DNA from: a virus
Reading direction: 5' to 3' (one strand)
IMG/VR virus record: IMGVR_UViG_3300040801_000885
Coordinates: 1 to 42,674 of that record
DNA length: 42,674 bases
Numbering within the stretch: the first letter of the stretch is position 1; every line of letters begins with the position of its first letter. The notes beneath the pieces were generated by a model. The model did not search any database. It had not been told where the DNA came from and saw nothing but the letters and a program-made list of their open reading frames with translations. A program made the translations under genes and the position numbers. This document shows positions 7,136-38,012 of the stretch, in pieces.

Positions 7136-7187
7136 TATCAGATTTGTATGCGTTACGGTACACGGATGACAACCGGGGACGGTGACA

Positions 7188-8471
7188 ATGTTTGACTTGG
7201 ACAGTGAGAACCCAGACCTATACCCGCACTCCACCGAGGCGGAGCGCTACCTGCTCTCGTGCTGTCTTGTGAACGACAACGCTCTGGACGCCGTGTCGGA
7301 CATCATCGAGCCAGATGATATGTACTGGCCCGCCAATGAGCGAATCTTCCGCAAGATGATGGAGCTTCACAGCGAGAATAAGGTGGTGGACGTTGCCACC
7401 CTGTCGGCCGAAGGCGAGGACGGAGACTTCCTATCGGCCCTGCTTGAGGTCCCCGCCGTAAGCGCCCGGTCTGCCGACTATGCCCGCCAGCTTCGCTCCC
7501 TGTCTATCAGGCGCAAGGTCATCAAGGCTGGTCATCGCATCGTTGACGTGGCCAAGGGTGAGACTGACGCCGACACCGTGCTTGACGAGGCTGAGGCTGC
7601 GCTGTTCGCCGCCAAGGGCAAGCACGAGACAGATGGTCCCGAGGATATCGAAGCGACCCTGTTCAAGCTGGAGTGTGAGCTTGGCAAGGGCACTCCTAAC
7701 TTCGGCCTGCGCACGGGCATTGACGACATCAACGACATCATCATTGGCATGGGGCCGGGCACGTTCAACATCCTCGCCGCCCGCCCGGGCACGGGTAAGA
7801 CGTGTATGGCGCTTGACATTGCCCGCCACATCAGCAAGGAGACTAAGACGCTCTTCTTCTCCATCGAGATGACGAAGAAGGAGATTGCCGAGCGCATGAT
7901 TGCGGCCGAGGGCACCGTGGGGCTAACCAAGCTCCGCACGTGTACGATGGACGACCGCGAGAAGGGAGCAGCGGAGAAGGCCATCAGTAGCCTGCGCACC
8001 CGCAAGCTCACGGTTGACGACAGTAGCTCTACCATGTACGATGTACAGCGTAAGGTCCGCCGGGCTGCCTCACGTGGAGACTTGGGGCTGGTCATCGTGG
8101 ACTACATCCAGCTTCTCAACATGGGGCGCGGGCGTTCGGAGAGCAGGCAGTATGAGGTGGCGCAAATCAGCAGGGCCATGAAGCTACTCGCTCGTGAGTA
8201 CGGTATCCCGGTGCTTGGTCTGAGTCAGCTATCGAGGCAGGAGGACAGGTACGCTGCCCCGAAGAAGCCGACCCTCTCCACGCTGAGGGACTCCGGGGCT
8301 CTGGAGCAGGATGCTGACCAAGTGTGGTTCATCCATCGGCCCGACGAGACAAGCCACGAGTGCGAGTTCATCGTGGCCAAGAACCGCAACGGCCCGATGG
8401 GCGACACGTTCCTGCGCTTCTGGCCACAGTTTACCCCGTTCACGTCTATCACGGGGAAGGGAGTGTCATGA
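7188..8471 (+). CDS. dnaB: DnaB-type replicative helicase, 427 aa
   Basis: The protein has the DnaB N-terminal helical domain (about residues 12-120, beginning HSTEAERYLLSCCLVND) and a RecA-fold C-terminal domain. Walker A is ARPGTGKT at 198-205 and Walker B is LVIVDYIQ at 301-308. GLSQLSRQED and the DSGALEQDAD segment are typical of DnaB motif H4 and the arginine-finger region. It forms the hexameric ring that unwinds DNA 5' to 3' at the fork using ATP. At 427 residues it is slightly shorter than bacterial DnaB. I chose ATG 7188; an in-frame GTG at 7182 is possible. No polymerase or primase gene is visible near it, so it presumably recruits host enzymes. Confidence 0.95.
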   Translation: MFDLDSENPDLYPHSTEAERYLLSCCLVNDNALDAVSDIIEPDDMYWPANERIFRKMMELHSENKVVDVATLSAEGEDGDFLSALLEVPAVSARSADYARQLRSLSIRRKVIKAGHRIVDVAKGETDADTVLDEAEAALFAAKGKHETDGPEDIEATLFKLECELGKGTPNFGLRTGIDDINDIIIGMGPGTFNILAARPGTGKTCMALDIARHISKETKTLFFSIEMTKKEIAERMIAAEGTVGLTKLRTCTMDDREKGAAEKAISSLRTRKLTVDDSSSTMYDVQRKVRRAASRGDLGLVIVDYIQLLNMGRGRSESRQYEVAQISRAMKLLAREYGIPVLGLSQLSRQEDRYAAPKKPTLSTLRDSGALEQDADQVWFIHRPDETSHECEFIVAKNRNGPMGDTFLRFWPQFTPFTSITGKGVS

Positions 8472-11911: not shown

Positions 11912-12580
11912 TCACCAGCGTGGAAGCCTGATGACCTTGTTGACCTGTGACCAAGGACGCATCTTCTTCACCACGCCCCCGCCCGGGAGCTTGCTCGACG
12001 TAGCGTTCCCCTCGATGGTGGCGACCAGCTTCATCGGGCCGTAGTTCTTGAGGATGACACCGATGTGATTCCCCCTCGCATCTCCATCCCAGTCGAACGT
12101 GACGATGTTACCCTTGGTGGCCCCGAGCTTGCTCTTGCGGATGTAGCCCTTGGCCTTCGCCCACGATTCCCACGCCGGGACCCACCCGGGGGTCTTCGGG
12201 AGCGAGCCGCCCCAGCCCGCCCGCTTCACGCAGTAGGTCACGAAGGCGGCGCAGTACGGAGCCGGGAAGGAGATGCCGACAGCTTTGAGGTACTTCTCCA
12301 CCGCACCCCAGTTAGAATACGGTGGCCACTCCTTCGTGCCAAGCTCAGCCTCGACCCTCTCCATGAGCTTCACGTCGAACGGCTTGACGATGTTCAGCGT
12401 GGTGGGATTGGGGTATGAGGAAATGACCTTCTTGTTGTTGTAGCGCAGGATGTCCTGCCACGTCCGCTGAGCGGGCTTGCCGAACTTGTTGCTGTAGGCA
12501 TAGAAACCCTTGCGGGTTGCGATACCGTGGGCCTTGCAGTAGCCCTTCATCCAAATCTTAGTAGTGCGATACGACGGCAT
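11912..12580 (-). CDS. CHAP-domain endolysin, 222 aa
   Basis: The start at ATG 12580 is preceded by GAGGAGG. Residues about 100-222 form a CHAP amidase/endopeptidase domain: catalytic Cys110 in APYCAAFV, His172 in GNHIGV, and E190-G191-N192 in TIEGN. The enzyme cuts peptide bonds in peptidoglycan. The first 85 residues are basic (TTKIWMKGYCKAHGIATRKG, KPAQRTWQDILRYNN) and may bind the wall. No signal peptide is present, so release depends on the holin about 1 kb downstream. The lack of a mycolyl-ester hydrolase suggests a host without a mycolic-acid layer. Confidence 0.85.
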   Translation of the reverse strand: MPSYRTTKIWMKGYCKAHGIATRKGFYAYSNKFGKPAQRTWQDILRYNNKKVISSYPNPTTLNIVKPFDVKLMERVEAELGTKEWPPYSNWGAVEKYLKAVGISFPAPYCAAFVTYCVKRAGWGGSLPKTPGWVPAWESWAKAKGYIRKSKLGATKGNIVTFDWDGDARGNHIGVILKNYGPMKLVATIEGNATSSKLPGGGVVKKMRPWSQVNKVIRLPRW

Positions 12581-12589
12581 GAGCCCTCC

Positions 12590-13096
12590 TCAGAAGAGTA
12601 CTTCGGTCAACTTGTTGCCCAGTGCGACGACGAACGGCACTGAGATTCCCAGCACGAACCAGCGGGCGACCCGCCACGCTCGCTTGATGTCTCCAAGCAT
12701 CTCGTCCTCCGGTTCAAAGGCCCCCTCCGGAACTATCTCCTTGCAATGCTCCTTGAGGATTGCAACATCAGCTTCAAGGAGGTTCACCGATGATACCACA
12801 CCGCGCAGAACCACGTCACGCTCTGAGTGCTTTGCCTCAAAGCCCTTGATGAGAGTCTCAAAGTCAGGCTTCAGGAGGTGGACATTCTCCTGCTCGTGGC
12901 ACTCAAGGTCCTCACCAAGCTGGACGAGAGCCTCTTTCAACTTCTTGTCTCGGGCTTGAGAGTCATGGTGCATGGCGACGAGAAACTCGCATACGTCGTT
13001 CACCGTCTTCTCTCCCCCGTTCTTGCGCAGTAGCAGTTTCTCAAAAGCACCAGCAAGTTCTCCGCCGCTATCGACCACTACTCTCACCTCCCTCAT
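12590..13096 (-). CDS. Coiled-coil protein with C-terminal membrane anchor, 168 aa
   Basis: ATG 13096 overlaps the tail collar gene's stop. The long central region is helical and charged (DKKLKEALVQLGEDLECHEQ), and the C-terminus has one hydrophobic segment (WFVLGISVPFVVALGNKL), so a tail-anchored membrane protein is likely. Its position between tail genes and the endolysin fits a second lysis-helper or anti-holin-type protein. It could also be a virion protein; nothing in the sequence separates these. Confidence 0.7.
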   Translation of the reverse strand: MREVRVVVDSGGELAGAFEKLLLRKNGGEKTVNDVCEFLVAMHHDSQARDKKLKEALVQLGEDLECHEQENVHLLKPDFETLIKGFEAKHSERDVVLRGVVSSVNLLEADVAILKEHCKEIVPEGAFEPEDEMLGDIKRAWRVARWFVLGISVPFVVALGNKLTEVLF

Positions 13097-13503
13097 AGTT
13101 TCTGGATGAATGCTAGGGCATAGTATGGTGGCAGATGGTCATCGTAGGCTATCGAGTGGACGTGGCTGAGGCCCTGTGCGTTGTTGCCGTCGCCTTCCGT
13201 GTCCCTGTGGACGGCGGCGTCACCAGTCCCGGTAGCCGCTCCGTGCCTGTGGCGATACTCCCCGCCACTCTGCGTCAGCGTGGTGCCGCCGTCCGACACG
13301 GTTGTCTTGGCGGTTCCGCTGTCGTCTTCCTTGGCCCCGACGACGAACCTGTCCCTCAGGTCAGGCGTTCCGTTGTCGCCGTTGCACAGCGCCCACCCAC
13401 CCGGGATGGTGGCGATGCTCCCACTCCACATGATGATACCACCAACGGGGATACCGTGTGTGCTTCCCCCTGAGTATTCCCCCATAGGTGTGGGCTCAAT
13501 CAT
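13093..13503 (-). CDS. Phage tail collar domain protein, 136 aa
   Basis: The sequence GIPVGGIIMWSGSIATIPGG, then WALCNGDNGTPDLRDRFVVG, is the tail collar motif (Pfam Collar) found at tips of tail fibres and short fibres. It is followed by a His-rich segment (YRHRHGAATGTG, LSHVHSIAYDDH) that in relatives often binds metal ions. It ends with PPYYALAFIQKL. It probably forms the tip of a tail spike or fibre for host contact. It overlaps the upstream 981-residue gene by 4 bases. Confidence 0.85.
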   Translation of the reverse strand: MIEPTPMGEYSGGSTHGIPVGGIIMWSGSIATIPGGWALCNGDNGTPDLRDRFVVGAKEDDSGTAKTTVSDGGTTLTQSGGEYRHRHGAATGTGDAAVHRDTEGDGNNAQGLSHVHSIAYDDHLPPYYALAFIQKL

Positions 13504-20854: not shown

Positions 20855-22093
20855 TCAGAGCCAAGTCAGGTAGGTCATTGCGGCGTGGGCGTGACCCGGG
20901 TCGATGACCTCCAGCGTGTGCTCACCGAGCGTGCGCTGGTAGTAGATGTCATCGCCGTTGGGCGAAGCCGTACCCTTGCCCCACTCCTGCTTCTCAAACG
21001 GGCGGAAGGGGCGGACAGCCGTCTTCTGCGGGTTCACGAGGAACAGGTGCCCCTTCTGGATGAGGGGGTCAGCGATAACCTCAGCCTCAAAGCCAAGGTC
21101 ACTGACGAAGCGAGTGACGTACCGACCGACGCGGCCTTCCTCCCACGAGGTGCGAACCTTGTCCGCCTCCCACGAGGAGATAACCTGCTGCGAGACACCA
21201 CTCGTCAGAATCTTGTAACCCTCTGACGGGTCGGCACCATTGAGCCACAGCTTGTAGAAGAGCGCGTTCAGAGCATCCGCAGTCAGCGACGTGGTAGTGT
21301 AGTCAACCAGCGGATTGGTCGAGGAGATGTTGTCAACGAGGAAGTCAAGGAACCCCTTGCTGGAGCGGATGACGGTATCGCTACCGACCGCCGTCGCGGC
21401 GTTGAAGCCGTAGAGGATTTGACTCAGAGTCTCGTTCTTGAGCTGCAACAGCTCGCGCTGGTACTGACGCTCAAGGTCGTTCGACACAATCTCCATCGAG
21501 CGAGCAAGCTGGGAGCCAGTGGCCTCAAGCTTGATGCTCTGGATGGCCGTGTAGTTCTCCAGAATCGTACGCGACTTGTACAGGTTCACGTCGTCAGTCG
21601 CCTTCGACCCTTCCTGCTTGTTGCTGAACAGCACGCGGTACTTGTCAGCGGCGGTGTGCGCAGCCGAGCCGGTACCGGAGTTGAACGCGCCCGCATCGCG
21701 GACGACAGTCAGGGCGTCGGTCGAGACAGCGGTGACCTGAAGAAGCTCGTCACGCTGGTACGTACCAATCGGGGTAGCGCGGGTAGCGTTCACCAGAATG
21801 GCACCGACCGGGACCTTGGCACCCTCGCCAGAGGCCACGTTCAGGACAGTCTCACTCGTGCCGTCCTCAACCTCGTCGCCACCAGCATCGTTAGTCTCGG
21901 TGACGAAGATGGTCGGGGCCGCGAGCGACATCCACTCGTGACGGTTCTGGTCAATCTTCGGACCCATAGGGAAAATCTCCAGAGCCCGGGCCTTGGCCCA
22001 CATAGCATCCCAAAGGATGTTGTTGATGCTCCGACCCTGAGTTCGGTCGGTGACATCGAAGCTAGCATAGGACCCTGCGACAGGGATAGCCAA
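20855..22093 (-). CDS. Major capsid protein (SU10-like family, probable), 412 aa
   Basis: TTAGTTAGG and AAGGAGG precede the start at ATG 22093. The protein begins MAIPVAGSYASFDVTDRTQG and has the alternating beta and helix composition of an HK97-fold capsid. The block LYKSRTILENYTAIQSIKLE, then GSQLARSMEIVSNDLERQYQRELL, resembles the family named after phage SU10, which infects Escherichia and is short-tailed. The gene follows a scaffold-like gene and a tRNA and has its own upstream and downstream RNA hairpins. The fold is inferred from position and pattern. Confidence 0.8.
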   Translation of the reverse strand: MAIPVAGSYASFDVTDRTQGRSINNILWDAMWAKARALEIFPMGPKIDQNRHEWMSLAAPTIFVTETNDAGGDEVEDGTSETVLNVASGEGAKVPVGAILVNATRATPIGTYQRDELLQVTAVSTDALTVVRDAGAFNSGTGSAAHTAADKYRVLFSNKQEGSKATDDVNLYKSRTILENYTAIQSIKLEATGSQLARSMEIVSNDLERQYQRELLQLKNETLSQILYGFNAATAVGSDTVIRSSKGFLDFLVDNISSTNPLVDYTTTSLTADALNALFYKLWLNGADPSEGYKILTSGVSQQVISSWEADKVRTSWEEGRVGRYVTRFVSDLGFEAEVIADPLIQKGHLFLVNPQKTAVRPFRPFEKQEWGKGTASPNGDDIYYQRTLGEHTLEVIDPGHAHAAMTYLTWL

Positions 22094-22228: not shown

Positions 22229-22302
22229 TGGTAGCTGGGGAGGGAGTCGAACCCTCATCGTAGGCTTATGAAGCCTTCATGCTCCCGTTGCACCACCCAG
22301 CG
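22229..22302 (-). tRNA. tRNA-Met (anticodon CAU), 74 nt with encoded CCA
   Basis: Reading the minus strand from 22302 gives a cloverleaf: acceptor CGCUGGG paired with CCCAGCU except for a C1-U72 mismatch, D stem GUGC/GCAU with one G-U pair, anticodon loop UUCAUAA (CAU at 22270-22268), T stem GAGGG/CCCUC with loop UUCGACU, then discriminator A and genomic CCA (22231-22229). The 5-bp anticodon stem has an A-A mismatch at its base. A CAU anticodon can be elongator or initiator tRNA-Met, or tRNA-Ile2 if modified. It lies in the late operon between scaffold and capsid genes. Confidence 0.85.
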
Positions 22303-23862: not shown

Positions 23863-23891
23863 ATTATAACACACTTATCTGTTGGCGTCAA
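23863..23891 (-). promoter_or_regulatory. Strong sigma70-type promoter for the capsid module
   Basis: On the minus strand TTGACG (23891-23886), a 17-base spacer and TATAAT (23868-23863) preceded by TGT, so an extended -10 plus a near-consensus -35. The promoter overlaps the stop region of the giant gene (ends 23875) and starts a transcript about 10 bases before the leader of the 330-aa gene, feeding scaffold, tRNA and capsid. This would give extra capsid output over the giant protein. Confidence 0.75.
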
Positions 23892-26800
23892 GAAGGTTGT
23901 AGACCCCACCCTCTGTGTCGCCCATGTAGTAGCCCCACTCCTCAGCGAACTTCGGGCTCAGGTTCTTCCACATCTCAACGAGCGCCTGTAGCCTGCGACG
24001 GTACGGCTCGGATGCGTTGGACGCAGGAGAGATACCCTTGCTCCCCATACTCTCGTTCCACGAGTCGAGCATCTGCTTGCGGTACTCCGCCCCGGCTGCG
24101 GCGACAGAGGCCCACGCGGCACGACGCAGCTTCTTCTGATTGGATGCAAAGAAGTCTGTGGGGTCAATGGCCCTCTCCTTGAATGTCTCAACGATGCGCT
24201 GGTAGTCGGGGTTGTCCCGGTCCATCGCCTTGACCACGGCGTTGAGGTAGCTCTGCGGAACGTCGGCAGCAAGCTCTGAGTGCAGGATGCGACCGCCGAT
24301 ACCGTCGCGCCACAACTCCCCACCGTTCTGCTTGTAGAGCTTGTTGCGCTCCTTGATGTACCACTGGCGGACTTCAACCCACTCGCTGCTCATCTGCTTG
24401 AACGGCTTTTGCTTCTCCTGATAAGTGTTGTATAGGTTGTCTAGTTTCATGTAGAGCTTGTTGACGGCGGACACGTCAACGTCCATCCCGATAGACGCAA
24501 GCTGCTCGCCGGGGTTGATGAGCTTCCAGTGCTCGTTGGTCATCAGGTCCTTGAGGATGCGCTTCTGGTAGCTCTCCCGCTTCTCCATAGCCTCCCTGAT
24601 GGCCGGTTCAGATACCGACTCCTCCCAGTCGAACAGCCTACGGTACTGCGGGCTCGCATACTTCTTGAGCGCGTCGGTCACGCGGTGGATGGCACCAGTC
24701 CTGTCCTTGTAATCCCCTGTCGCCCGCCACACGTCGTTGAGGTACCAGTCCTTCAGCCCCTCGTCGTAGGGGGTGATACCGTCGGCGCTCTTGCCGCGCT
24801 CGATAGCAGAGATACCATCGTCGGTGAAGAAGTATCCTTCGGACCTGAACGCCCGGTACATCCGGTTGTTGATGGCCTCAACGTTCCACTTCATCGGGTC
24901 CTTGATTCCATGAGCGTTCACGTAGTTGGTGAGCCAGAACGGAGCGGAGCGCCCGCCGTCCTCGTAGTCGCCCCCAGCATTCGGGTCAGACCAGCCGTCG
25001 CGGTACGACTCCCAGTCCATCTGCCACTGCTTCCGCTGCGCGTCCGTCTTCGCGTACTGGCGGATGGCCTTCTCGGCAATGCTCTCGGCGCTGCGCATAC
25101 CAGCGTCGGCATCCTTCTCAATCTTCTCCCGTGTCTTCGACCAGCCAAGGTTCGCCCAGTACTTCTTCACACCCTCAAGGTAGCCGCCCGGGCCATACAG
25201 GGGCTTGTTGATTACATAGTCGTTCTGGAGCTTGAGCCAGTACTCGCCGCCGATGAGCGGCCTGCCGTTCTTGTAGTCGTTGCGACCGTTGACATAGGGA
25301 ACAGCCCAGAGGTTCTCGGGCTTGGAAATCCAATGCACCTTCTCCTCGTAGTCCATGTCATAGAACTCTTTGATGGCCTTGGCCTTGGGGAACCTGTCAT
25401 ACAACTCTGCCATCTTCTCCTTGTCGCCATAACACTCTGTAAGCTCAAAGTAGAAGTCTGTCATTGTACGTACGCGCTCTGTTCCCCAGAACTTCTGATA
25501 GAAGGGCTTTCCCTCCATATTGTCCTCAAGCTCTTCGGGCATATAGGAGACACGGCCGAAGGGGTTGAACATACGTGAAGCCATGCCAATGATAGCCTCG
25601 GGGTTTCTCACCGCTCCACCCATCGAAGCTATCCGCCAGAGCAAGTCGTCCTGCCGCATCTCCTCCATCGCCACGTCGAAGTCGGGGCGCATACCCTTGG
25701 ACAACTGCGCACGGGCAATGTTGCTGGCCAAACGCTCCCGCTTTACGGGGTCCTTGAACAGGGACATGATGGTCATCGAGTGAACGATGGTCATGAGTCT
25801 AGAGGACTGCGCATTAGGCGTAATGAGGTCGGGGAAGAATCCCCATAGAATGTCATCAAGCTGGAATGTAGCGCTCGTGTTCTTTGATGCGAATGTCATT
25901 CCGGGGATTTTGTTGTAGATATCATCAAGCTCTGTCGCCCCGGTGTACTCCCACTTCCCGGGCTCAGTCTCAGACCAGCCGGTCGCCATGTTGGCCCCCT
26001 TGAAGGGGAGCACGATGAACGGGCTGAACCCCGGGATGGCGAACTGCTCAAAGTTCTCCTGCAAGAAGAACGGCAGCGGCATGAACACGGAGATGGGTCC
26101 AAGCTGGAGCGCCGGATAATCGTTGCGGAACTTCTGACTGATACCAGCAGCAAGAGCCGGATGCCTTGCGGCCAGCTTGCCCCAGTAGGCCATCGCCTGA
26201 CGGTAGGCGGGCTGGAAGAGGAACACGTTTCTGGTCGCGTACTCAAAGCCTGTCATCGTGTGTGAGTAGGATGCAGTCTCGGCCACGTCCATTGCGTAGG
26301 AATACGCCCTGCCAACAGCCCGCTCTTGGTCGAAGCCCAGCTTGATAAGGCGGTCGTACTCAGCACCGAAGTAGTGCATGACGGTCCCCCGGCGGATGAA
26401 CTCGGAGCTTTGCTCCAGCCACCAGAACGGTCCGATGCCAGCCTTCTCAGCGAGTGGGCCGATGATGGGGAGGTTGACACCCCAGTCGCTTGTGGTGCTT
26501 GAGCCCACGACAACCGGCATCTCACCGCCACTGGCCTTGATGCGCTGCTCGATAGCCTTCACCTGTGCCTTGGTGAGCTTCTTGCCGTGGATGTAGGCGT
26601 CCATAAGCTCGTCGTCCTGAGCGAACACCCCAAGCTTCTCAAGCCACTCATCCATCCAGTCGTCAATCGCCTGAGTCCAGCCCTGAGAGCCGAAGTCGTC
26701 ACGAGTAAGACCCTCCGCCATCTTGACATTCGTCTTCGCCTTGCGTAGCTGACTGGCGACAACGCCCTCGTGGGCGCGAGCTTCCTCAAGGGCCTTGAAC

Positions 26801-29800
26801 TTCTCAAGCCCACCCTCTACCTGCGAAGCCTTGTGCTTGGTCCACGCATAGTAGAGCGACTGACGCTCCTGCCTCGTGAGCCGGTCACGATACTTCCGTA
26901 CAATACCCTTGACGTTCGCCAGCGGCATCCCCTCGGGAGCCGTGACCCAATCCGGAAGGTCATCGCCAAGCTCGCCACCCTCAAGGAGCTTGTCGCTCTT
27001 CTGCGGCTTGATGTAGTCCTCGTCAATGAGAGCCTTGAGCATCTTGGCCTCGTCCTTGTCGAGGCGCTGCCCTGACCCCATCTTGTAGAGCAGGCGGTCC
27101 ATCATGTCAAGCTGGGCGCTAAGGCGCTCGCCTTCCGTCATCGCCTGCTTGGCGGCTACGCGCGGCTGGCGGTGCGCACCCCTGTGCTTGATGTCCCTGA
27201 GAAGGTCGAGAACCTCGTTCTCGGTCCAATCGCTCTTCCCCATGAAGCCCTCACCATTGTGAAGACCGCTCAAGTAAGAGGCAACCGCATCGGGAGTCTT
27301 CCCCGGAGTCTTCCGGTGTTCAGACGCGCGGTACCCAGCCCGGAAGATTCCGGACGGGTAGTTGGCCCTCTCCTCTTTCGCTGTTCCTTTCGGGAACTTG
27401 ATGGCAATAGGATGCTCAGTGCCGGGTCCTGTTCCCCTGAGGTAGAGCACAAGCTCGTACTCTGTCTCCGGGTCCATCGTCCCGGCATCGTACTCACGTC
27501 CCATTCTCCCCACAGCGCCAGCCTGTGCGGTCTGCTCAGACGACTCAAGGTCGTCGTAGACTTCCTGCCGCTTGGTGCGCAGCTTCTCGGTCTGCTCCTC
27601 TGGAGTGGTGGACGGCTTGACTTCCTTCTCCGGAGCGGCACCGCCAAGCAGAGCGTCCATCTCCTCATCGTCGGTCATACGCGGGCCAGTGTCAGCCTGC
27701 TCAGCAGCCTCGTCTGCCTTGCCGCCAACGCGCTCAAACCTTACGCCCTTCATCTCTTCTGCCGTTGCGGGGCGGCGCGGACGGCCCCTGACCCAGACAA
27801 TGACCCGCACTGGAATCTCGTCCATGTCCATCTCTGCGGCGGCGAGTGCCCTGTGGTCGCCCTCCTGAATCGAATCCTTGGCGATTCTCGCCACACCGTC
27901 TTCGTCAATGTAGGCTTCTAGGGTGGCCGGGTCAACCGGCTCGCCGTTGGCGAACCTCTGACGGATAGCCGAAAGCTGGCCCTCCTGTGTGCCCTTCGCT
28001 GCGGCATAGTTCTCATCAATGTAGAGGTCTGGGTCGTCTGCTGCGGCAAGGCGTCCGGGCTGGCTGCTCTCGTCAAGGTACTCTTCGGGAGTCATGGTGA
28101 TATCGAGCGTGGACTCTCGTGGATGAGCGCGGAGAGCCGGGTCCATTATATCGTCGTCGTCAGGAAGAACCCAACGCCCCTTCGCCCCAGTGGTTTCGTC
28201 GGGGGCCTTGCGCACAAGGAACGTATCCCGGCCCTCAGTCACCCTTTCCGTGAAACCACGCTTGGAATACCACTCCGTAAGCTGGTCCGTCGTCATGGAC
28301 CCAGCCTTCACATCGTCTGGCTCCGCCAGCGGCCGTACGCGAAGCTCCATACCGTTGTCGTCGGCCCACGCCACGATGTCATCGAGGGCCTGCGTGCCCC
28401 GGCCCTCCCCCCTCATTCCCTGCTCAACACGAATGTCGTTGATGTAGGCAACGCTTGGCTCATCGTCCATGACAGTGATATGGACATCAGTGTCGCCAAG
28501 CTTGGTCTTTACGCTACTCGCCTTGCGGCCACCCTGCTTGATGTGACGGACATCACCGAACGATGTGAGCGGGTTCACCGTCTCCGCTGGCGCGGGCGCA
28601 GGCCCTCCGCCGACGCGACGGCGCGGGACTTTCAGCCTGCTCTCATTCCCAACGCCCCAGACTCTCGTGTCCGTGTAGTTGACCCTCCGGATAGAACCAT
28701 CCGGCATCTCAACACGGAACTCCGTCAGTGGACCATCGTCAACGGACTTGACGACCCCGCGACCAGTCAGCAACGAACCCGCGCCGTCGTCGTACTTGAA
28801 CTCGATTTCATCCCCAACGCCAAGCATGTCGTCGGAGAACTCCGCAACCTCATCGGCAGCCGCAGGCGCGCTTTCGGCTACCTCGTCGCCCCGGCGGGCG
28901 AACCGACCAAGCAACTCTTCCTCAAGCTCCGGAGTCCACGAACCCTTGCGCGTGGCAACGTCAACGGGAATAAGCTCGACACCCTCGTCTATCGCGGCGA
29001 GGGCGCGCTGCCTGCCCTCCTGCGAGGTCCACTCCCCGGCCCTGACATCGTACTCAAGCCACGGACTAGAGATTTCGTCGCCGTCGCGGATTCGCTTACG
29101 CAACTTCTCGATGTTGTCCTCGCTAAAGAATCCCTGCTCGCGAAGTTCTTTCGCGTGGGTCCTCCCCGCAGCGGAGCGAGCCTCTATCTCAAGGTACTCA
29201 TCGGGAGTCATCCACACACGGCGGACATCAGGGTTATCTGCAAGGAACGGTGCAGCGGGCTTGTCAGAGAGCGGCCATTCCCTAGCGGCTGGAGCGGCCT
29301 CTGCGGCAGCCGCAGGCGGACGCTCAGGCACAGCCGCAGCCACAGGCTCAAAGCGCTCCTGCATCCACGCGGCGGTGAACTCGTCGCTTGGGCGACCGGG
29401 CTGGCCAAGCTCGCTGGCGAGCTGACGCCTGCGGGCGACGGCCTCGACGTACTGCTCGTTGAAGTCATCGACCATGCTGTTGGCCTGCGCCAAGGCGTGC
29501 TGCTTCTCCTCGGCCATTGCCTTTATCTCGCCGTCGGGAAGCCACGTACCCTCGTTCATGCGCCGCATCTGAATCAGGTGGAGTCGCAAGCGGTTGCCGT
29601 CCTCGTCGTCCCTGAGAATGCGCTCCCGCATCTTGTTCTTCCAGCGAGTCGTGTACTCCAACATTGTTTCGCCCGGCTCGCGTTTCCCGACTTCCTTCCA
29701 GACCAGCATACCAGTCTCGTTCGGATGCTGTAGCTGCTGAATCTCCGCGTTGAGAAGCAGGTTGTAGTCGGGGTGATTCGTCGTGTACGAGGTCCACGTG

Positions 29801-32800
29801 TCAAAGTTCTTCATCAGCCCGGTGATTTCCGCAGCCTCCTGCTCGCGGAAGAACCCGCGCTCTTCAAGGATGGCCTTCGCCCTCCTTGTGCGGTCGGGCT
29901 CAAGGACCCGGCCGACAAGACCGCGAAGGTTCTGCGGTCGCCAGAACTCGTCAATGCCCAAGGCGGTAAACATGAAGCCGATGCGTGCAAGCGCAACAAA
30001 GCGGAACAGACCGATGGCACCGTTGACGGTCGGCCCCATACCAAAGAGCAGGCCGGTGCCCTGACGGGCCTCGATAACATTGCGCCAGCGACCGCTGTTG
30101 GCGGCTGACACGCGGAGCGGGTCGATGGTGACCTGAACGTGCTTAGCAAGCTGCGCCTCTAGGAACGGAACCGCGTGGCCCTCTTCCTTGATAAGCCCCT
30201 TGGTTTCCTTCAACGACTTGAGGTGGGTCTGCGCGTCCTTGAGCAATCGCTTGGCCTCTTGGACTCCCTGCTTCGTCCCGTGGCCGCGCATCATCATCGC
30301 CCGCTGGTCCTTCAGGGCGGTCTTCGCAGCCCTAACTGTGCGGGTCGCAGCCGTTAGCTCGGCCTTGCGGACGTGGACAAGCGAGCGCTCCTTGACGAGC
30401 GCCTTACCGGCATCGTCCAAGGCAATCCGGGGGTCGTACATCCTCGTTCTCTTCAGCCTGTTGAGGACCTTCCCCCGCGTGGACTTGCCGCTGGCGAGGA
30501 AGGTCTGGAGGTTGTAGAGGTCCCAGTAGGTATCGAGGTCGTCCTTCAGGCCGTTCATCCTCGCAAACTTATTGGCGCTCTTTCGCATCCCGCCTTCAAG
30601 CTTGCGTGCTTGCAGCGCAGTCTTGACGAGCCCCTCCATCTTTTGCTGGAGCCTCTGGGCGTGATACGCATATTCCTCTGGGGTACGAGCATCGCGCATC
30701 AGACGCCAAGCCTTCTCCCGAATCTGCTCCATCGAGACATTCGCGGCGCGCTTGCCCGCTGCGGTATGGGGGAGTCCGCCGTGGGTGAGCTTCCAGAACT
30801 TCTCTGTGTGGAGAAGGAGGTCGTCCGTGAGCGGGTTGAACGTTCCGGTGCGGCTGAACGCATACTTCATCTGCGGTGGAATATACCCGCCCATACCGGC
30901 TTTGTTTAGCTGTCGGGCTCTGCGCCAGTAGACATTGCCCATGTCAATGCGCTGGCCGTGCTCCGTGACGAGCTTGCTTAGCTGGCGGGCAATGAACTCC
31001 TCGTCGGTGGACTCGGCAATCTGCTCGATGATGTGCATCTGCTCGGCACGCTTGCCAACGTACTTGGCACCGAACCGCGTCCCCTCCTCGTAGCCGACAC
31101 CCTTGACGAACTTCCCGCCCTGCTGGAAGTAGCCCAAGCTCTTCTCAACTGCAATCTCCCCGGTAGTCTTCATGTTCAGAACTTCATAGACTGCGATTGG
31201 GTTCTGCTTCTTCTTGGCCAGCGCCATCGCAACAGTGTCATGCCAGAGCGGGCGGTTGAGATAGGCAAGCTCATTCCTTGCGTACGCAAGCTCCGTGCGG
31301 AGGGCTGCCATCTTCGCGGCCTCCACAGATTTCGGAGCGACACCACCGATTCCACGTCCAGCAACCTTCGCTATCGCCGCCTCAAGACGGGCAACCTCAG
31401 TCGTGGCAGAGGCTACCTGCTCAAGGTGACTCGCGTTTGTCGCTAGACGTACGGCCTTGGTCGCAGCGCCGAGAACCGTCTTCGCTCCGCCGGTCGTCGC
31501 CATATCGAGTAGGATGTCCTTGCCGATTGAGGTTCCGTACGCGCTGATTGCGAATAGCGTAGCGTGCTCTTCCCTGTTCCAGCCGTACTCCTCCCACTGG
31601 TCAATCATAAAGGTGTGCATCTCGTCAGTCTCGTAGGCCATCTCGCCAGCACGCTCCCACGCCTCTGGCAACATGGACAGCACTGAACGAGAATCGCCCT
31701 TCCCCTGCGCCTGCTCCTCGACCGTTATGCCAAGGCGGCGCGCCTCTTCGCGGTCCATATCTTGAAGGGCTGAACCGACCAGCATGACGCGGTTGAACCC
31801 TCGTTCAAATCTGTCGAAGACTCCGTACTTCTCTGTCACCCGCTCGTCAAGCTCAAGCACCTTGGGGATGATGACGTGCAGAGCTTCTGACATGTTGACG
31901 TTGGCGGGCGGGCCGTCGCCCTCCTCGATGTCCTTGAGGATTTCGTCAAGGTCTGCGGTGAACTTGGTGACTGTCTCGGTGCGAGTCCCGCCACCAGCCT
32001 CAAAGCGATTGCCCGGGGTGACCACTCCGCGAACCGGACGGCTAACGCCTTCGGTCAGCCCAGCCTCCCACGGAGTCTCGATGATTCCGCTGAGAGTCTC
32101 AAGCTCCTCTTCGCTTGGAGTCCCCAGACCAGCAAGCTCGGACGCCATAGCGTACAGGAATGTGGCGCTTCCCTTTCTGTTCATGTCTATCTTTGAAAGC
32201 GGCATACCGACAAGCTCTTCGTACTTGGCGATTGTCGGATTCCATTGCTCGTCCATCACTTCTTCGTAGAACTGGCGCTGAGCGGGCGGAAGGAAGTCCT
32301 TACCGAACATATCGGCGTACTGCCAGATAAGCTGCTGGTCCGTCCAGTACGGCTTGCGGGCGTTACTGAATCCGTAGTAGAGGTACTCCGCATACTGGTC
32401 AGAAACCTGAATGGGCTGGCTGGAATCGCCGGTCACCCCAAGGGATTGGAGCATGGCATACATATCGTCGCCAACCTCAACCCCGTCAATCACGTCGTCA
32501 ATCAGGGCCTTGGCAGCATCGCGGCGCTTGACCATCTTCTCGGAGCGCAGGTGCTCAGGGGTGGCATCGTGAATCAGGACGTGTGCGAGGTTGCCCTCAA
32601 GAATGTAGCGAGAGACATAGTAGTCAAGCGTGTCATCCCACTTGACTTCTCTCAGGTCGTTGCCGTACTTCTCGGCAATCCCCTCGTCGGGGTAAATCCT
32701 GTCAAGCATCGTAACGATATCCCAGACGGCCTCTTGGTCGTCCCTGTCCTTGATGTTCTTGGTCTTGACTCCAAGCGTTCGGTCGCGGAGTGGCATAAGC

Positions 32801-33408
32801 CGAGACAAGTCCATAACGCGCCCGGGCTGTAGTCCAGCTTTCTCAGCATCCTTGAACTTGTCGGCCTGCTCCTTGTAGAACCAGCGAGCAGCAGAGTAGG
32901 GCTCCATCTTCGTGCGCGTCACGCGGTCGAGTTCGCCATACGCCTCGTCGTAAAGCTCAAGCTCAGGACGCCCGGTCTTCACCTGATGAAGGCCGACACC
33001 CTCAGGGTCCCAAGGAGAGCTTACTCCAACGTTCTTCTTCTCGATGACCTTCTTGAGGGAGACATGCTTGCGGGGGACGATTTGCGTTGGACTCAGGTCC
33101 TCAGGGTCGGGCTCGATGTCCTTCACCCAGTCGGGGAGGATATCGTCGTAGTCGGCCTGATTGTCAAGCTTTAGCCCAGCCGTAGACTTGACAAACTCCA
33201 CCGTCTTCTCTGGGGAGGGGAGCTTGCCAGTCTTATTGAAGTAGGCGTTGCCAACACCTTGGGCTCTGCCCTCGGCGTCCTTGGCTACCTTGGTGGCCTC
33301 ACGAATCGCCCTGCGCGCTATCCGCTGGCCCTCTTCTGCCTTTTCGCGGCGGCGCTTCTTCTCTGCGGCGGTCAGTGGGCCAAGTGACGTTCCCTGAACG
33401 AGAGGCAC
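23875..33408 (-). CDS. Giant polyvalent-like virion protein, 3,177 aa
   Basis: GTG 33408 follows GGAGGTG and the frame is intact to 23875. It is probably injected with the DNA or part of the virion interior: it sits between the portal and capsid genes and no other large internal protein is present. Visible parts: charged helical N-terminus (1-60); helical regions; a hydrophobic stretch near 1141; an Ala/Pro-rich linker near 1366; a ParB-like module (about 1400-1490, RQRALAAIDEGVELIPVDV); a small beta domain (about 1520-1570); a GNAT-like domain (about 1625-1735, MRGEGRGTQAL, WYSKRGF); a second ParB-like module (about 1770-1870, DHRALAAAEMDMDEIPVRV); further helical regions; a hydrophobic region near 2455; and a long helical C-terminus. 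Such mixtures are known from phage 'polyvalent proteins', which act in host takeover or defence evasion. Domain names are my pattern reading. Confidence 0.85.
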   Translation of the reverse strand: MPLVQGTSLGPLTAAEKKRRREKAEEGQRIARRAIREATKVAKDAEGRAQGVGNAYFNKTGKLPSPEKTVEFVKSTAGLKLDNQADYDDILPDWVKDIEPDPEDLSPTQIVPRKHVSLKKVIEKKNVGVSSPWDPEGVGLHQVKTGRPELELYDEAYGELDRVTRTKMEPYSAARWFYKEQADKFKDAEKAGLQPGRVMDLSRLMPLRDRTLGVKTKNIKDRDDQEAVWDIVTMLDRIYPDEGIAEKYGNDLREVKWDDTLDYYVSRYILEGNLAHVLIHDATPEHLRSEKMVKRRDAAKALIDDVIDGVEVGDDMYAMLQSLGVTGDSSQPIQVSDQYAEYLYYGFSNARKPYWTDQQLIWQYADMFGKDFLPPAQRQFYEEVMDEQWNPTIAKYEELVGMPLSKIDMNRKGSATFLYAMASELAGLGTPSEEELETLSGIIETPWEAGLTEGVSRPVRGVVTPGNRFEAGGGTRTETVTKFTADLDEILKDIEEGDGPPANVNMSEALHVIIPKVLELDERVTEKYGVFDRFERGFNRVMLVGSALQDMDREEARRLGITVEEQAQGKGDSRSVLSMLPEAWERAGEMAYETDEMHTFMIDQWEEYGWNREEHATLFAISAYGTSIGKDILLDMATTGGAKTVLGAATKAVRLATNASHLEQVASATTEVARLEAAIAKVAGRGIGGVAPKSVEAAKMAALRTELAYARNELAYLNRPLWHDTVAMALAKKKQNPIAVYEVLNMKTTGEIAVEKSLGYFQQGGKFVKGVGYEEGTRFGAKYVGKRAEQMHIIEQIAESTDEEFIARQLSKLVTEHGQRIDMGNVYWRRARQLNKAGMGGYIPPQMKYAFSRTGTFNPLTDDLLLHTEKFWKLTHGGLPHTAAGKRAANVSMEQIREKAWRLMRDARTPEEYAYHAQRLQQKMEGLVKTALQARKLEGGMRKSANKFARMNGLKDDLDTYWDLYNLQTFLASGKSTRGKVLNRLKRTRMYDPRIALDDAGKALVKERSLVHVRKAELTAATRTVRAAKTALKDQRAMMMRGHGTKQGVQEAKRLLKDAQTHLKSLKETKGLIKEEGHAVPFLEAQLAKHVQVTIDPLRVSAANSGRWRNVIEARQGTGLLFGMGPTVNGAIGLFRFVALARIGFMFTALGIDEFWRPQNLRGLVGRVLEPDRTRRAKAILEERGFFREQEAAEITGLMKNFDTWTSYTTNHPDYNLLLNAEIQQLQHPNETGMLVWKEVGKREPGETMLEYTTRWKNKMRERILRDDEDGNRLRLHLIQMRRMNEGTWLPDGEIKAMAEEKQHALAQANSMVDDFNEQYVEAVARRRQLASELGQPGRPSDEFTAAWMQERFEPVAAAVPERPPAAAAEAAPAAREWPLSDKPAAPFLADNPDVRRVWMTPDEYLEIEARSAAGRTHAKELREQGFFSEDNIEKLRKRIRDGDEISSPWLEYDVRAGEWTSQEGRQRALAAIDEGVELIPVDVATRKGSWTPELEEELLGRFARRGDEVAESAPAAADEVAEFSDDMLGVGDEIEFKYDDGAGSLLTGRGVVKSVDDGPLTEFRVEMPDGSIRRVNYTDTRVWGVGNESRLKVPRRRVGGGPAPAPAETVNPLTSFGDVRHIKQGGRKASSVKTKLGDTDVHITVMDDEPSVAYINDIRVEQGMRGEGRGTQALDDIVAWADDNGMELRVRPLAEPDDVKAGSMTTDQLTEWYSKRGFTERVTEGRDTFLVRKAPDETTGAKGRWVLPDDDDIMDPALRAHPRESTLDITMTPEEYLDESSQPGRLAAADDPDLYIDENYAAAKGTQEGQLSAIRQRFANGEPVDPATLEAYIDEDGVARIAKDSIQEGDHRALAAAEMDMDEIPVRVIVWVRGRPRRPATAEEMKGVRFERVGGKADEAAEQADTGPRMTDDEEMDALLGGAAPEKEVKPSTTPEEQTEKLRTKRQEVYDDLESSEQTAQAGAVGRMGREYDAGTMDPETEYELVLYLRGTGPGTEHPIAIKFPKGTAKEERANYPSGIFRAGYRASEHRKTPGKTPDAVASYLSGLHNGEGFMGKSDWTENEVLDLLRDIKHRGAHRQPRVAAKQAMTEGERLSAQLDMMDRLLYKMGSGQRLDKDEAKMLKALIDEDYIKPQKSDKLLEGGELGDDLPDWVTAPEGMPLANVKGIVRKYRDRLTRQERQSLYYAWTKHKASQVEGGLEKFKALEEARAHEGVVASQLRKAKTNVKMAEGLTRDDFGSQGWTQAIDDWMDEWLEKLGVFAQDDELMDAYIHGKKLTKAQVKAIEQRIKASGGEMPVVVGSSTTSDWGVNLPIIGPLAEKAGIGPFWWLEQSSEFIRRGTVMHYFGAEYDRLIKLGFDQERAVGRAYSYAMDVAETASYSHTMTGFEYATRNVFLFQPAYRQAMAYWGKLAARHPALAAGISQKFRNDYPALQLGPISVFMPLPFFLQENFEQFAIPGFSPFIVLPFKGANMATGWSETEPGKWEYTGATELDDIYNKIPGMTFASKNTSATFQLDDILWGFFPDLITPNAQSSRLMTIVHSMTIMSLFKDPVKRERLASNIARAQLSKGMRPDFDVAMEEMRQDDLLWRIASMGGAVRNPEAIIGMASRMFNPFGRVSYMPEELEDNMEGKPFYQKFWGTERVRTMTDFYFELTECYGDKEKMAELYDRFPKAKAIKEFYDMDYEEKVHWISKPENLWAVPYVNGRNDYKNGRPLIGGEYWLKLQNDYVINKPLYGPGGYLEGVKKYWANLGWSKTREKIEKDADAGMRSAESIAEKAIRQYAKTDAQRKQWQMDWESYRDGWSDPNAGGDYEDGGRSAPFWLTNYVNAHGIKDPMKWNVEAINNRMYRAFRSEGYFFTDDGISAIERGKSADGITPYDEGLKDWYLNDVWRATGDYKDRTGAIHRVTDALKKYASPQYRRLFDWEESVSEPAIREAMEKRESYQKRILKDLMTNEHWKLINPGEQLASIGMDVDVSAVNKLYMKLDNLYNTYQEKQKPFKQMSSEWVEVRQWYIKERNKLYKQNGGELWRDGIGGRILHSELAADVPQSYLNAVVKAMDRDNPDYQRIVETFKERAIDPTDFFASNQKKLRRAAWASVAAAGAEYRKQMLDSWNESMGSKGISPASNASEPYRRRLQALVEMWKNLSPKFAEEWGYYMGDTEGGVYNLLDANR

Positions 33409-33780
33409 TTACACCTCCAAGAAGGGCGTACCGTCACGGACGGCGTTACCCTTGGCTTCGACATCGGCGGCGGCAAGGCGCTTGTACGAGCGCAGCCACG
33501 GGCCGACTAGCTCATCTGCGGCCATCTGCTGAGCGGCCTCAGCTACCCGCGCTGCCCTCCCGAAATCACGATAGAGCGGCGCGTAGGGAGACTCCTGCTC
33601 AACCGGCGCAGGCGTACCTTGCGTCGGTGCTCCCCGATAGGAAGGCCCGCTACTCGGCCTGCCAACGGGGCGGCTGGTTCGCGGAACCAACTCCCCCGCA
33701 CCCTGTTTGGTGCCACCATTTCCGAGCCGTTGAAGTGCCGTGGAGTCCCCATAGACTTTGTTATCCTTGACTGCACTCAT
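33409..33780 (-). CDS. Pro/Gly-rich protein between portal and giant gene, 123 aa
   Basis: ATG 33780 follows GAGGGAGGG, 10 bases after the portal stop. Residues about 25-65 are Pro/Ser/Thr/Gly-rich (TSRPVGRPSSGPSYRGAPTQ) and likely disordered, and the C-terminal part is helical. The stop immediately precedes the giant gene's GTG start (TAAGTG). It may be a small virion protein or a linker of the giant protein's operon. No family recognised. Confidence 0.7.
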   Translation of the reverse strand: MSAVKDNKVYGDSTALQRLGNGGTKQGAGELVPRTSRPVGRPSSGPSYRGAPTQGTPAPVEQESPYAPLYRDFGRAARVAEAAQQMAADELVGPWLRSYKRLAAADVEAKGNAVRDGTPFLEV

Positions 33781-33790
33781 CAGCCCTCCC

Positions 33791-35887
33791 TCACATCATC
33801 GGGGGCATACCCGGCGGCATCCCGCCACCCGGCATCCCACCACCCATAGCTGCCATTGGGTTCATCTCTTCAGGCTCCATGCCCATCGGCATCTCTTCCT
33901 CGGGCATCTCTTCCATCTCCCCGCCCTCAATCTCATAGCCGCTGGTGCCCGGGCTGACGTTCAGTCTCGGGTGGGCCTCAAGGAACTCACGGTCCTCATG
34001 GAACACGAGCCTCTGCTGCTGGACCGCACCGGCAAGCTCCGTGCTCTTCAGGAAGTTGAGCAGCGTAGCCTTGTCGAGCGGGTCAGAGATGTACAGGTCG
34101 ATGTAGCCGTCAGCGAACTCGTCAGCGCTGATACCACCCTCAAGGTACTCACCGACCAGCCACACTTCGCCCTTCACCTTGCTGGCGCTGCGGAACACGT
34201 CAGCGACGGCGGGGGTCACGTCCTCTTCGCCACCGGGCTCTGCACCGGGCGGAGGACCGGGCTCGCCCGGCACGGGGGCGGGCGGAGCGCTACCCGGAAT
34301 ACCCTCGGGTGGTGCAGCGCCCTCGACGGCCCCGCCCTTCTCAGCGGAAAGCGCCTGCTGGTCAGGCGGCATCTGCGGCTGCTGAGCCATCATCGCCTGC
34401 GCTTGAATCTGCGCCATCTCAAGAACCTCGTCCTTGATACGCTGCATCTCAGCCTCAACGTCGTCACAGTCCGGGTCAAGCTCAAGGAACCTGCGCGTGC
34501 TCATCAGCGGCGGATTGCCGCGAGCCTTCTGGAGGTTCGTCACCTGAGCGGCCTGCCTGTCGATGTAGGCGGACGAATCGAGGTACACGTAGACGTGCAG
34601 CCAGTTGGGGTCGATGTCCGCCTTGGGGTCGAACAGGTCCGTGAACATCGAGCCACCCTTGCTGCCGTAGATACCGCCGGCCTTTCCCTTCTTCTTCCAC
34701 AGCATCAGCGCGTCCTCAGTCATGCGCTCAATCTGCGGGTCAAAGGTCTGGAGCCGCATCATCATCCTCTGCTGCGTACCAGACTTCAGGGCCACGACGC
34801 CCTTGCCCGAAACCTCCTGATGATACTCCCCTCGGGAGAGATTGGAGAAGTCCATTGCGTTGTCGAGGTTGTGCTTCATGTCTTCCATACGATACTCGAA
34901 AACTCTGGGGTCGATACTTGCGATTGGCGCTTTCCCGATTGCACCCTGCGGACCCATCGTCACAACGGCGTGCTTATTCCACGTGAAGTTGGCCGGGACC
35001 TCATCCGGGTCCTTGATGAAGGTCGGAGCGTTCATCACGTCATCGAGATACTCCGCCTGCTTGGAGTACAGCCGGTTCAGTTCATCCTGAATCGGGATGG
35101 TCTTCGTGAGGTTCGACGCGCCGAAGAGAGAGTTCGGGATGGCGATTGAACGGAACATGTAGATGGGAACCGTGTCGAGCGGGTTCTTCGCCTCGATGAT
35201 GTTCTCCTCAACACCCTCGATGCAGCGGTAGCGCATGTCCTTGTCGTAGTAGTCGATAACCTCGTACTCTTGGTCGGGAGCAAGGTCGAGCTTCTTGTCG
35301 GCGTACTGGAGGTTGAGCATCCTGCCCAGCGTCTTCTGGATGAAGATTCCTATCTGGACTCTGGTCGAGTCCTCTGGGTCGGCCTGCGCAATGAAGTTCT
35401 CGGGAGAGCGGACGGTCGGCATGGGGACCTTCTCGCCCTTGTCCCACCGGAGAACACCGATACCAGTGCCGAAACAGACCGCGTACCAAGCGGCCTCAGA
35501 AAGAAAGACGGGCATCTGCCACATTCGCCAGAGGTGGGCGATTCCCCGCTCCAGCTTGTCGGAGTACAACTGAGCCTCAGTGTTGCTGGGGATGGGCAGC
35601 GGTACCCGGTGAGAGCGCATGGCCCCCAGCACGGTACGCTGGTCCTCGATAATCTGGTGGAGGAAGGGGATGTTGACCAGAAGGTCAGTGTCATCGTCGG
35701 CCCGCTCCCACGGTGCGTGCTCTCTGGTGGTCGGTGCCGTGATGTAGGCAAAGCGCTCGGACTCCATTGTCTCCCGTCCTAGCGCTCGTGCAATCGCTTC
35801 GTAGCTTGAGAGGCGCTGCTGTGTACCGGGGGTGTTGGCAAGCTCCTCTTTGATTTCGATGATTTCCTTAGCGCTGTAGTTGCTCAC
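33791..35887 (-). CDS. Portal protein, 698 aa
   Basis: ATG 35887 begins MSNYSAKEIIEIKEELANTP. The size and sequence character (LFGASNLTKTIPIQDELNRL, PIPSNTEAQLYSDKLERGIA) fit a podovirus-type portal, the dodecameric ring through which DNA is packaged and ejected. The gene follows the terminase gene, as usual. An acidic/proline region lies around residues 520-565, and the last 45 residues are a Met/Gly/Pro/Glu-rich tail (EEEMPMGMEPEEMNPMAAMG). The tail is unusual and may be a flexible internal extension. Its own extended -10 promoter lies 40 bases upstream. Confidence 0.85.
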   Translation of the reverse strand: MSNYSAKEIIEIKEELANTPGTQQRLSSYEAIARALGRETMESERFAYITAPTTREHAPWERADDDTDLLVNIPFLHQIIEDQRTVLGAMRSHRVPLPIPSNTEAQLYSDKLERGIAHLWRMWQMPVFLSEAAWYAVCFGTGIGVLRWDKGEKVPMPTVRSPENFIAQADPEDSTRVQIGIFIQKTLGRMLNLQYADKKLDLAPDQEYEVIDYYDKDMRYRCIEGVEENIIEAKNPLDTVPIYMFRSIAIPNSLFGASNLTKTIPIQDELNRLYSKQAEYLDDVMNAPTFIKDPDEVPANFTWNKHAVVTMGPQGAIGKAPIASIDPRVFEYRMEDMKHNLDNAMDFSNLSRGEYHQEVSGKGVVALKSGTQQRMMMRLQTFDPQIERMTEDALMLWKKKGKAGGIYGSKGGSMFTDLFDPKADIDPNWLHVYVYLDSSAYIDRQAAQVTNLQKARGNPPLMSTRRFLELDPDCDDVEAEMQRIKDEVLEMAQIQAQAMMAQQPQMPPDQQALSAEKGGAVEGAAPPEGIPGSAPPAPVPGEPGPPPGAEPGGEEDVTPAVADVFRSASKVKGEVWLVGEYLEGGISADEFADGYIDLYISDPLDKATLLNFLKSTELAGAVQQQRLVFHEDREFLEAHPRLNVSPGTSGYEIEGGEMEEMPEEEMPMGMEPEEMNPMAAMGGGMPGGGMPPGMPPMM

Positions 35888-36371: not shown

Positions 36372-38012
36372 TTATACTACTGGTTCTTCTTCTCTATACC
36401 TTGGGTTTAGAACTATACGTCCCGGTCCTTCATTGTAGCAACGGTACCCCGTGTTCTGCTTCCTGACTCCAATCTCTGCGAACCAGAGAGCCATACACAT
36501 GTCGTTGAGTCCATCGGGGAAGAGCATCAACTCGTCAATCATCCTCTCTGCCTTCTCTCTCGTTGACGGGTTGTTGTGGTAGGGGATGCGAAGCAGCCCG
36601 TCCTTCACCATCGTCTGCATCGAAGCCACTCCGGTCAGCGGGTCATTGCGGTTCTGGTTCTGAGTCTCGTGGGGCAGGACCTTGATTCCGTTCAGCGCTG
36701 CCTCTCGCATCCTTGCGTTCTCAAGCAGGTACGACTGCGCAGCGTTGGCCTCTACTCTGGCATGGTCGTACTTGTACAGCGAGTAGAAGCCGGGGATTCC
36801 CGTCCTGTCGTCGCCGTAGGTGATGAGGCTGAGGATGTCATCGAACCCAATCTGAGCCCGGTACACGTCGATGATGTAGCGCTTCATCGGGTCTTCCTTG
36901 CGGTCCACCCCGAGCAGGACTCCAGCGGTGAAGGAGTTGTGGGTACCGCGTCGTCCGGTGCTGGGGTCGATGCCGAGAACGAGATAGTCCACCCCGTCTG
37001 GAATCTGCCCCATCTCTCGCAGGTAGTCCAAGCACCCCGGATACTCAATCTCACCGATGCGCTCTCCGTAGAGCCAATGCTTCTTGAAGACCATCGAGCC
37101 TTCGTCGGCAGCAACGTTACGGAAGCGCTTGTCGAAGTCGATGCGCCCCATCGAGATTTCCTTGGCCCGGAGCTTCTCCGCCGACCAGCGCTCTGGCCAC
37201 AGGGGAATGGTCTTCTCCTTGTCCACCCAGCAGTCGTACTTGATTGCCCGGTAGGACGGGTCCTTGCACTTGATGAGCTTGCCGTGGGGCATGTCGGCTA
37301 CGCGGCCAATCTTCCGGTGAAACATGTCGTCGGGGTGGAACACCGTCCCGGCGATGATTCCCTTCTCGTAGTGAACGTCAAGCGGCCAGTTGATTCCCTC
37401 GGGCACCAGAAGCTTCCCAGTCTTCGGGTCGTGGTTCCAGATGTACTGCGGGGATGTCTCGACGCCCTCCTGAAAGATGTTCCACTGTTTGTCCCTCTGA
37501 GCCTGAGTCGAGACTGTGGTGGGGGTAACGATGTCGTCTGCGAGGAACATGTCGCAACGACGGCCGAGCACTTGGTCGATTGTATTTGCCGACGCAAACA
37601 GGACGGTAGGCTGCGGGTCGTGAATCTGCCTGCCATAGACAATGATGGAATCGTTGTTCCACACGGCGTCACGGCCCTGCGGCTGGAAGCGTCCGAAGTC
37701 TTCTCGCAAGTCTAGGTTCGTTGAGAGGACCGTTCGGATGGAACGAGCATACGTCTTCACCTCATCGTCGTTCTTCATCATCACGATGATGCGGACGTTC
37801 CTGTTCTGGGCAATCTTGTAGACGATGTACCACAGGGAGAGGAGCGTAGATTTACCGTGAGTCGCAGGAAGTAGTACAATGATGCGGTCGGACTCCTCAA
37901 TCATGTAGAGCATCTCGGCTTGCCACTCCGTTATGGAAAGCCCGGAGTAGCGCGAGATGAACAGAACCGGGTCACGGGAGGCGAGGCGAATGAATGTAGG
38001 GTCACTCTTCAA
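36372..38012 (-). CDS. terL: Terminase large subunit, 546 aa
   Basis: ATG 38012 overlaps the upstream gene by 11 bases. The ATPase part has Walker A PATHGKST (49-56) and Walker B MFLADD (155-160). The nuclease part (RNase H-like) has Asp349 in LGIDPSTG, Glu in ARVEANA and Asp in DGLNDMCM. The protein cuts concatemeric DNA and drives it into the head through the portal. Order (putative small terminase, TerL, HNH, portal) is standard. The length is typical. Confidence 0.95.
   Translation of the reverse strand: MKSDPTFIRLASRDPVLFISRYSGLSITEWQAEMLYMIEESDRIIVLLPATHGKSTLLSLWYIVYKIAQNRNVRIIVMMKNDDEVKTYARSIRTVLSTNLDLREDFGRFQPQGRDAVWNNDSIIVYGRQIHDPQPTVLFASANTIDQVLGRRCDMFLADDIVTPTTVSTQAQRDKQWNIFQEGVETSPQYIWNHDPKTGKLLVPEGINWPLDVHYEKGIIAGTVFHPDDMFHRKIGRVADMPHGKLIKCKDPSYRAIKYDCWVDKEKTIPLWPERWSAEKLRAKEISMGRIDFDKRFRNVAADEGSMVFKKHWLYGERIGEIEYPGCLDYLREMGQIPDGVDYLVLGIDPSTGRRGTHNSFTAGVLLGVDRKEDPMKRYIIDVYRAQIGFDDILSLITYGDDRTGIPGFYSLYKYDHARVEANAAQSYLLENARMREAALNGIKVLPHETQNQNRNDPLTGVASMQTMVKDGLLRIPYHNNPSTREKAERMIDELMLFPDGLNDMCMALWFAEIGVRKQNTGYRCYNEGPGRIVLNPRYREEEPVV

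Follow-up and report, generated by a model that had tools for sequence, protein, structure and literature searches.

A giant post-portal phage protein with a GNAT-like domain between two ParB/Srx-like modules

The question raised by this locus is what a single phage protein of 3177 residues (P0001), encoded between portal and capsid genes, might do with a GNAT-like acetyltransferase domain that is flanked by two ParB-like modules. The window analysed here is a 42,674-base IMG/VR record, and all coordinates refer to this full stretch.

The gene neighbourhood of P0001

The features recognised in the window are as follows.

36372-38012, minus strand: terminase large subunit (TerL; phrog_38, E=8e-53; Streptomyces phage relatives about 25% identical)
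33791-35887, minus strand: portal protein (SPP1_portal, 32.7 bits, over the cut-off; phrog_64)
33409-33780, minus strand: small ORF of 123 aa between portal and giant, matching no family
23875-33408, minus strand: giant protein P0001, 3177 aa, GTG start, with portal-side genes on one side and capsid genes on the other
22229-22302, minus strand: tRNA-Met, between the giant and the capsid gene
20855-22093, minus strand: major capsid protein (SU10_MCP, 103 bits)
13093-13503, minus strand: tail-collar-like protein, score below the cut-off
11912-12580, minus strand: CHAP-domain endolysin-like protein
7182-8471, plus strand: DnaB helicase
6542-6847, plus strand: DUF559 protein

Genes on the minus strand run in the order terminase, portal, 123-aa ORF, P0001, two ORFs belonging to no family, tRNA-Met, SU10-type capsid, and an SU10-adaptor-like protein. 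The GTG start of P0001 lies immediately after the stop codon of the upstream gene and is preceded by GGAGG, and the codon-position GC bias is even over all 3177 codons. This start context, together with the even codon-position GC from end to end, shows that P0001 is one continuous gene. An open frame of 536 aa at 28123-29733 on the plus strand runs antisense to the module region; it is most likely a high-GC artefact, and similar long antisense frames are present in loci L005, L019, and L034.

Direct searches of IMG/VR with either P0001 or TerL as the query found no match, and neither did tblastn of the C-terminal third of P0001 against named phages. NCBIfam returned only weak, implausible matches. 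A search for relatives of the portal protein gave no match, the capsid protein has relatives in other phage types that lack a similar giant protein, and PADLOC found no defence-system match. Within P0001 itself, aa 1-1380 had no recognisable homology, no MPTase, ART, helicase, or methylase was recognised, and the HExxH motif is absent.

Two ParB/Srx-like modules and a GNAT-like domain

The central part of P0001 contains three domains, for which scores are given from profiles built without the window sequences (leave-out profiles).

28927-29238, minus strand: ParB/Srx-like module 1, aa 1391-1494, with MTPDEYL at aa 1400, QRALAA at aa 1467, and G1465 and R1468 of the GxxR motif retained (leave-out profile 68.4 bits; AlphaFold2 pLDDT 85; Foldseek matches to ParB/Srx)
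28189-28515, minus strand: GNAT-like domain, aa 1632-1740, with MRGEGRG at aa 1665, LTEWYSKRGF at aa 1710, and the acetyl-CoA loop R1666-x-x-G1669-x-G1671 (PF00583; leave-out profile 37.2 bits; Foldseek matches to GNATs)
27739-28134, minus strand: ParB/Srx-like module 2, aa 1759-1890, with MTPEEYL at aa 1772, HRALAA at aa 1852, and G1850 and R1853 retained (homology to module 1; leave-out profile 27.6 bits; structural matches to sulfiredoxin)

The initial annotation had proposed that two segments of the giant share a repeated plan, and this proved correct, with the motifs at the places named. Smith-Waterman comparison of aa 1385-1515 with aa 1755-1895 scored 88, while shuffled sequences averaged 30.9 with a maximum of 63 (Z=10.3), and none of 2000 shuffles reached the observed score. 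Judged by these alignment statistics, the two modules are a true internal duplication, homologous beyond chance. The wording and spacing of the motifs needed small corrections: module 1 carries QRALAA rather than R/HRALAA, and MTP precedes RALAA by 67 residues in module 1 and by 80 in module 2 rather than by about 90.

No ParB model in Pfam matches module 1 or module 2, and a whole-protein search of PHROGs gave only a weak match to aa 1456-1487. We scanned viral contigs with both modules and then with five members, which yielded 49 relatives. Some of these are small proteins, about 145-300 aa long, and the others form part of larger proteins that reach 4.9 kaa. The family shares the motif M(T/S)PDEYL ... 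(Q/H)EGRHRALAA ... IPV, and the G and R of its GxxR (GxHR) motif are invariant in 30 members, both window modules included. A profile of 30 aligned domains, again including the window modules, matched SbnI in the PDB (E=0.0012); the five-member profile had SbnI, ParB, and Spo0J among its weak matches, and family members matched ParB-like PHROGs at up to E=2e-5. The Pfam ddrB-ParB model matched none of the 30 ParB-type members.

All three leave-out scores are far over noise. We also compared the AlphaFold2 model of module 1 with known structures using Foldseek, and all of the 50 PDB matches listed were chains of ParB, Noc, KorB, PadC, sulfiredoxin, or SbnI, apart from the structural-genomics entry Atu1540, with a modest best E of 2.5e-3. 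In the model of aa 1600-1900, sulfiredoxins matched the second ParB module. From these profile and model comparisons we consider the ParB/Srx fold suggested by the initial annotation to be established, and the function of the modules to be predicted. SbnI, ParB, and sulfiredoxin have this fold and the GxxR motif in common with the P0001 modules, but the latter have no recognised ParA partner or HTH, and sequence identity is low.

The ParB/Srx-like family, with its M(S/T)PDEYL...EGRHRALAA...IPV signature, is widespread in phages (loci L087-L137, e.g., L092, L106, L124, L126, and L133), where it occurs either solo or within proteins of 1.2-4.9 kaa. One phage protein of 1541 aa (L091:4917-9539) has two stretches that match the ParB-like profile and is a possible second case of duplication.

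The GNAT-like domain predicted between the modules was likewise confirmed. When aa 1605-1745 were scanned alone, PF00583 scored 22.9 bits against a cut-off of 20.7; in a scan of the whole 3177 aa, the score was 18.5 bits, which is below the cut-off. The R/Q-x-x-G-x-G/A acetyl-CoA loop is intact in P0001 (R1666 G E G1669 R G1671), and the model of aa 1600-1900 has a pLDDT of about 90 over the GNAT. Foldseek placed GNATs on top for this GNAT-ParB2 model, and the best PDB match was AcrVA5 (E=3.6e-4, TMt 0.67). AcrVA5 is a very small protein that is favoured by the target-normalised TM-score, so its first rank should not be over-read. A scan of bacterial genomes with the GNAT gave no match. Between the first ParB module and the GNAT, aa 1528-1590 (window positions ~28827-28639) may form a small beta-rich domain, which matches no family.

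A conserved backbone and related phage proteins

The TerL relatives are Beephvirinae Streptomyces podoviruses, and podovirus morphology has been observed by electron microscopy for one member of this group, Abafar (PMC11536984). Their gene order is TerL, portal, small ORFs, a 1.6-kaa protein (phrog_10618; gp10 in Streptomyces phage WRightOn), tRNAs, and capsid, which matches that of the window. An alignment of TerL from five phages was too diverged for scanning. A TerL scan recovered 80 viral loci, and those of sufficient length generally have an ORF of 1.5-1.96 kaa after the portal. These giants fall into two mutually homologous families (hhalign E=2e-35), and the giant post-portal protein (phrog_10618 plus the second family) is near-universal in the TerL group L001-L086.

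P0001 is related to these giants over one stretch.

26110-26787, minus strand: conserved core, aa 2208-2433, shared with the Beephvirinae-type giant post-portal protein and containing the stretch from EFIRRG (aa 2336) to FEYATRN (aa 2388)

Comparing P0001 by BLAST with individual giants or with large proteins from the structural region of WRightOn, CRP-810, and VpV262 gave noise, and for this reason we claim homology only after profile tests with controls. In hhalign, aa 2208-2433 scored 41.8 against one giant family, while controls reached at most 28.7 (100 shuffles) and 27.7 (64 chunks of the same length from other phage giants). This homology covers only about 225 of the 3177 residues, and the remainder is undetectable by hhalign. 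A hydrophobic stretch at aa 1132-1170 had been considered as the counterpart of the LLRLGYALRN region of the giants, but it was dropped because hhalign gave no match there. The C-terminal stretch had been likened to domains of large polyvalent proteins; that assignment was not supported in this form, as no Pfam LPD model matches it and it belongs to the conserved giant.

The Beephvirinae-type giants are shorter than P0001, at 1.5-1.96 kaa, and neither ParB nor GNAT was found in any of 36 of them, nor did any locus of the TerL group give a hit to either domain. The triple module therefore appears to be cargo that a conserved giant virion protein carries. From the sequence comparison, this cargo looks like an addition in the phage of P0001, placed upstream of the conserved stretch; the N-terminal parts of the giants and of P0001 do not align.

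Related domains also occur together elsewhere. Two viral contigs, L110 and L113, encode a 447-aa protein (L110:2707-4047) with a P0001-type GNAT followed by a P0001-type ParB. Its gene lies directly between the portal and scaffold/capsid genes, which were judged by sequence and order and not by a family search. The order of the two domains and the gene interval are thus common to these phages and the window, but the 447-aa protein has a single ParB and an ejection-protein-like N-terminus, and neither the portal nor the capsid of L110 matches its counterpart in the window. In L110, this N-terminus matches an ejection protein annotated in a P22-like phage, with hits to the third of the three putative ejection proteins that Pseudoalteromonas phage H6/1 encodes and to the Vibrio counterpart of this protein.

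Serratia phage Parlo and Pseudomonas phage Skulduggery each have a giant DarB-like protein that also contains an embedded P0001-type GNAT, as do a PLxRFG protein of a Klebsiella phage and a large Vibrio phage protein. In the BFVD, several phage proteins align along the full GNAT-ParB model, but these alignments are only suggestive because the rmsd is high. Stand-alone GNAT acetyltransferase genes are located in the virion gene block of CRP-810 (L002, 20356-20814), one gene before a large hypothetical protein, and of VpV262 (L003, 15489-15971), two genes before the giant ORFU. The association of GNATs with virion genes recurs.

Virion-associated polyvalent proteins contain GNAT and ParB domains (Iyer et al. 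2017, PMC5512222). Like these proteins, including the DarB-like protein of Parlo, P0001 is very large and multidomain, is encoded near late genes, and has the same GNAT type and a ParB/Srx domain; several unrelated domains are thus combined in one phage protein near virion genes. Unlike them, P0001 has no recognised MPTase, ART, helicase, or methylase, and its ParB type is doubled around the GNAT. The absence of named LPD and MPTase domains narrows the polyvalent claim and does not exclude it, because some polyvalent proteins lack them. The parts of P0001 are known from polyvalent-type proteins, and what is new is how they are arranged. The suggestion that the combination may be new holds for ParB-GNAT-ParB on a Beephvirinae-type backbone, which we did not meet elsewhere in this analysis, but GNAT-ParB tandems exist in other phage proteins.

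A possible role at DNA entry

We believe that P0001 is most likely an injected host-modifying or counter-defence protein. More specifically, it is probably a packaged and ejected giant internal-virion protein of a podovirus-like phage, which would deliver a GNAT and two ParB-fold domains to the host cell. The location of the gene between those for portal and capsid, a setting typical for injected phage proteins, the Beephvirinae gene order, the backbone homology, the L110 precedent, and the occurrence of GNAT and ParB in phage giants all support the injected-protein reading. We infer packaging, injection, catalysis, and target from L110 and from the precedents of phage P1 DdrB, T4 Alt, and N4 vRNAP, all of which are packaged (PMC5512222). 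The backbone of P0001 would be a much diverged, enlarged version of the Beephvirinae-type giant post-portal protein, with the ParB, GNAT, and ParB cargo upstream of the conserved core. The protein would be packed in the head and exit with the DNA. After entry, the GNAT may acetylate a protein of the host, and both ParB/Srx modules may bind a nucleotide, hydrolyse it, or act on DNA. The outcome would be either early takeover or protection against host defence.

It is unlikely, though by no means negligible, that P0001 serves in virion structure or DNA ejection and that its ParB and GNAT domains have no enzymatic role and persist as degenerate scaffolding. The backbone is conserved in phages that lack both domains, so its core job is independent of them, and at the present distance the motifs are conserved only as fragments. 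However, the RxxGxG acetyl-CoA loop and the ParB GxxR residues are retained in all three domains, and ParB and GNAT domains recur in unrelated phage proteins. We consider it rather improbable that P0001 acts late inside the producing cell, in head assembly or DNA packaging, without being delivered. Although its gene does lie among head genes, the P1, T4, and N4 proteins named above are packaged, and the related protein of L110 has an N-terminal part that resembles an ejection protein. Chance resemblance, with neither ParB nor GNAT present, deserves almost no credence: there is no Pfam match to ParB on either module and the whole-protein GNAT score is under the cut-off, but the agreement of leave-out profiles, repeat statistics, and structure comparison refutes it.

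AcrVA5 being the best PDB match also invites the idea that the virion delivers the GNAT as an anti-CRISPR acetyltransferase of the AcrVA5 type. Remote phage proteins with the AcrVA5 fold block Cas12a (PMC10799925), and DarB-like antirestriction proteins contain GNATs. The two domains share a compact GNAT fold, but AcrVA5 is a free small protein, unlike the domain of P0001. Besides the bias towards a very small GNAT, the sequence-profile match is insignificant (E=0.56) and many ordinary bacterial GNATs score nearly as well in Foldseek, and we therefore view this identity as very unlikely. A long shot of much the same order is the boldest form of the proposal, in which a virion-delivered AcrVA5-like acetyltransferase between two nucleotide-binding ParB modules would disarm a host nucleic-acid defence at DNA entry and would be an exchangeable payload of the ejection protein conserved across a widespread group of podoviruses.

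For the phages concerned, P0001 shows that the Beephvirinae-type giant post-portal family, which has no known function, is able to carry enzyme-like cargo. The ParB family of P0001 is common in phage giants and yet has no Pfam model. GNAT and ParB, two domains of injected phage proteins, are linked here as a recurring pair. At least two phage lineages encode it in the same interval between genes, and this recurrence gives experiments on virion-delivered host modification a concrete target.
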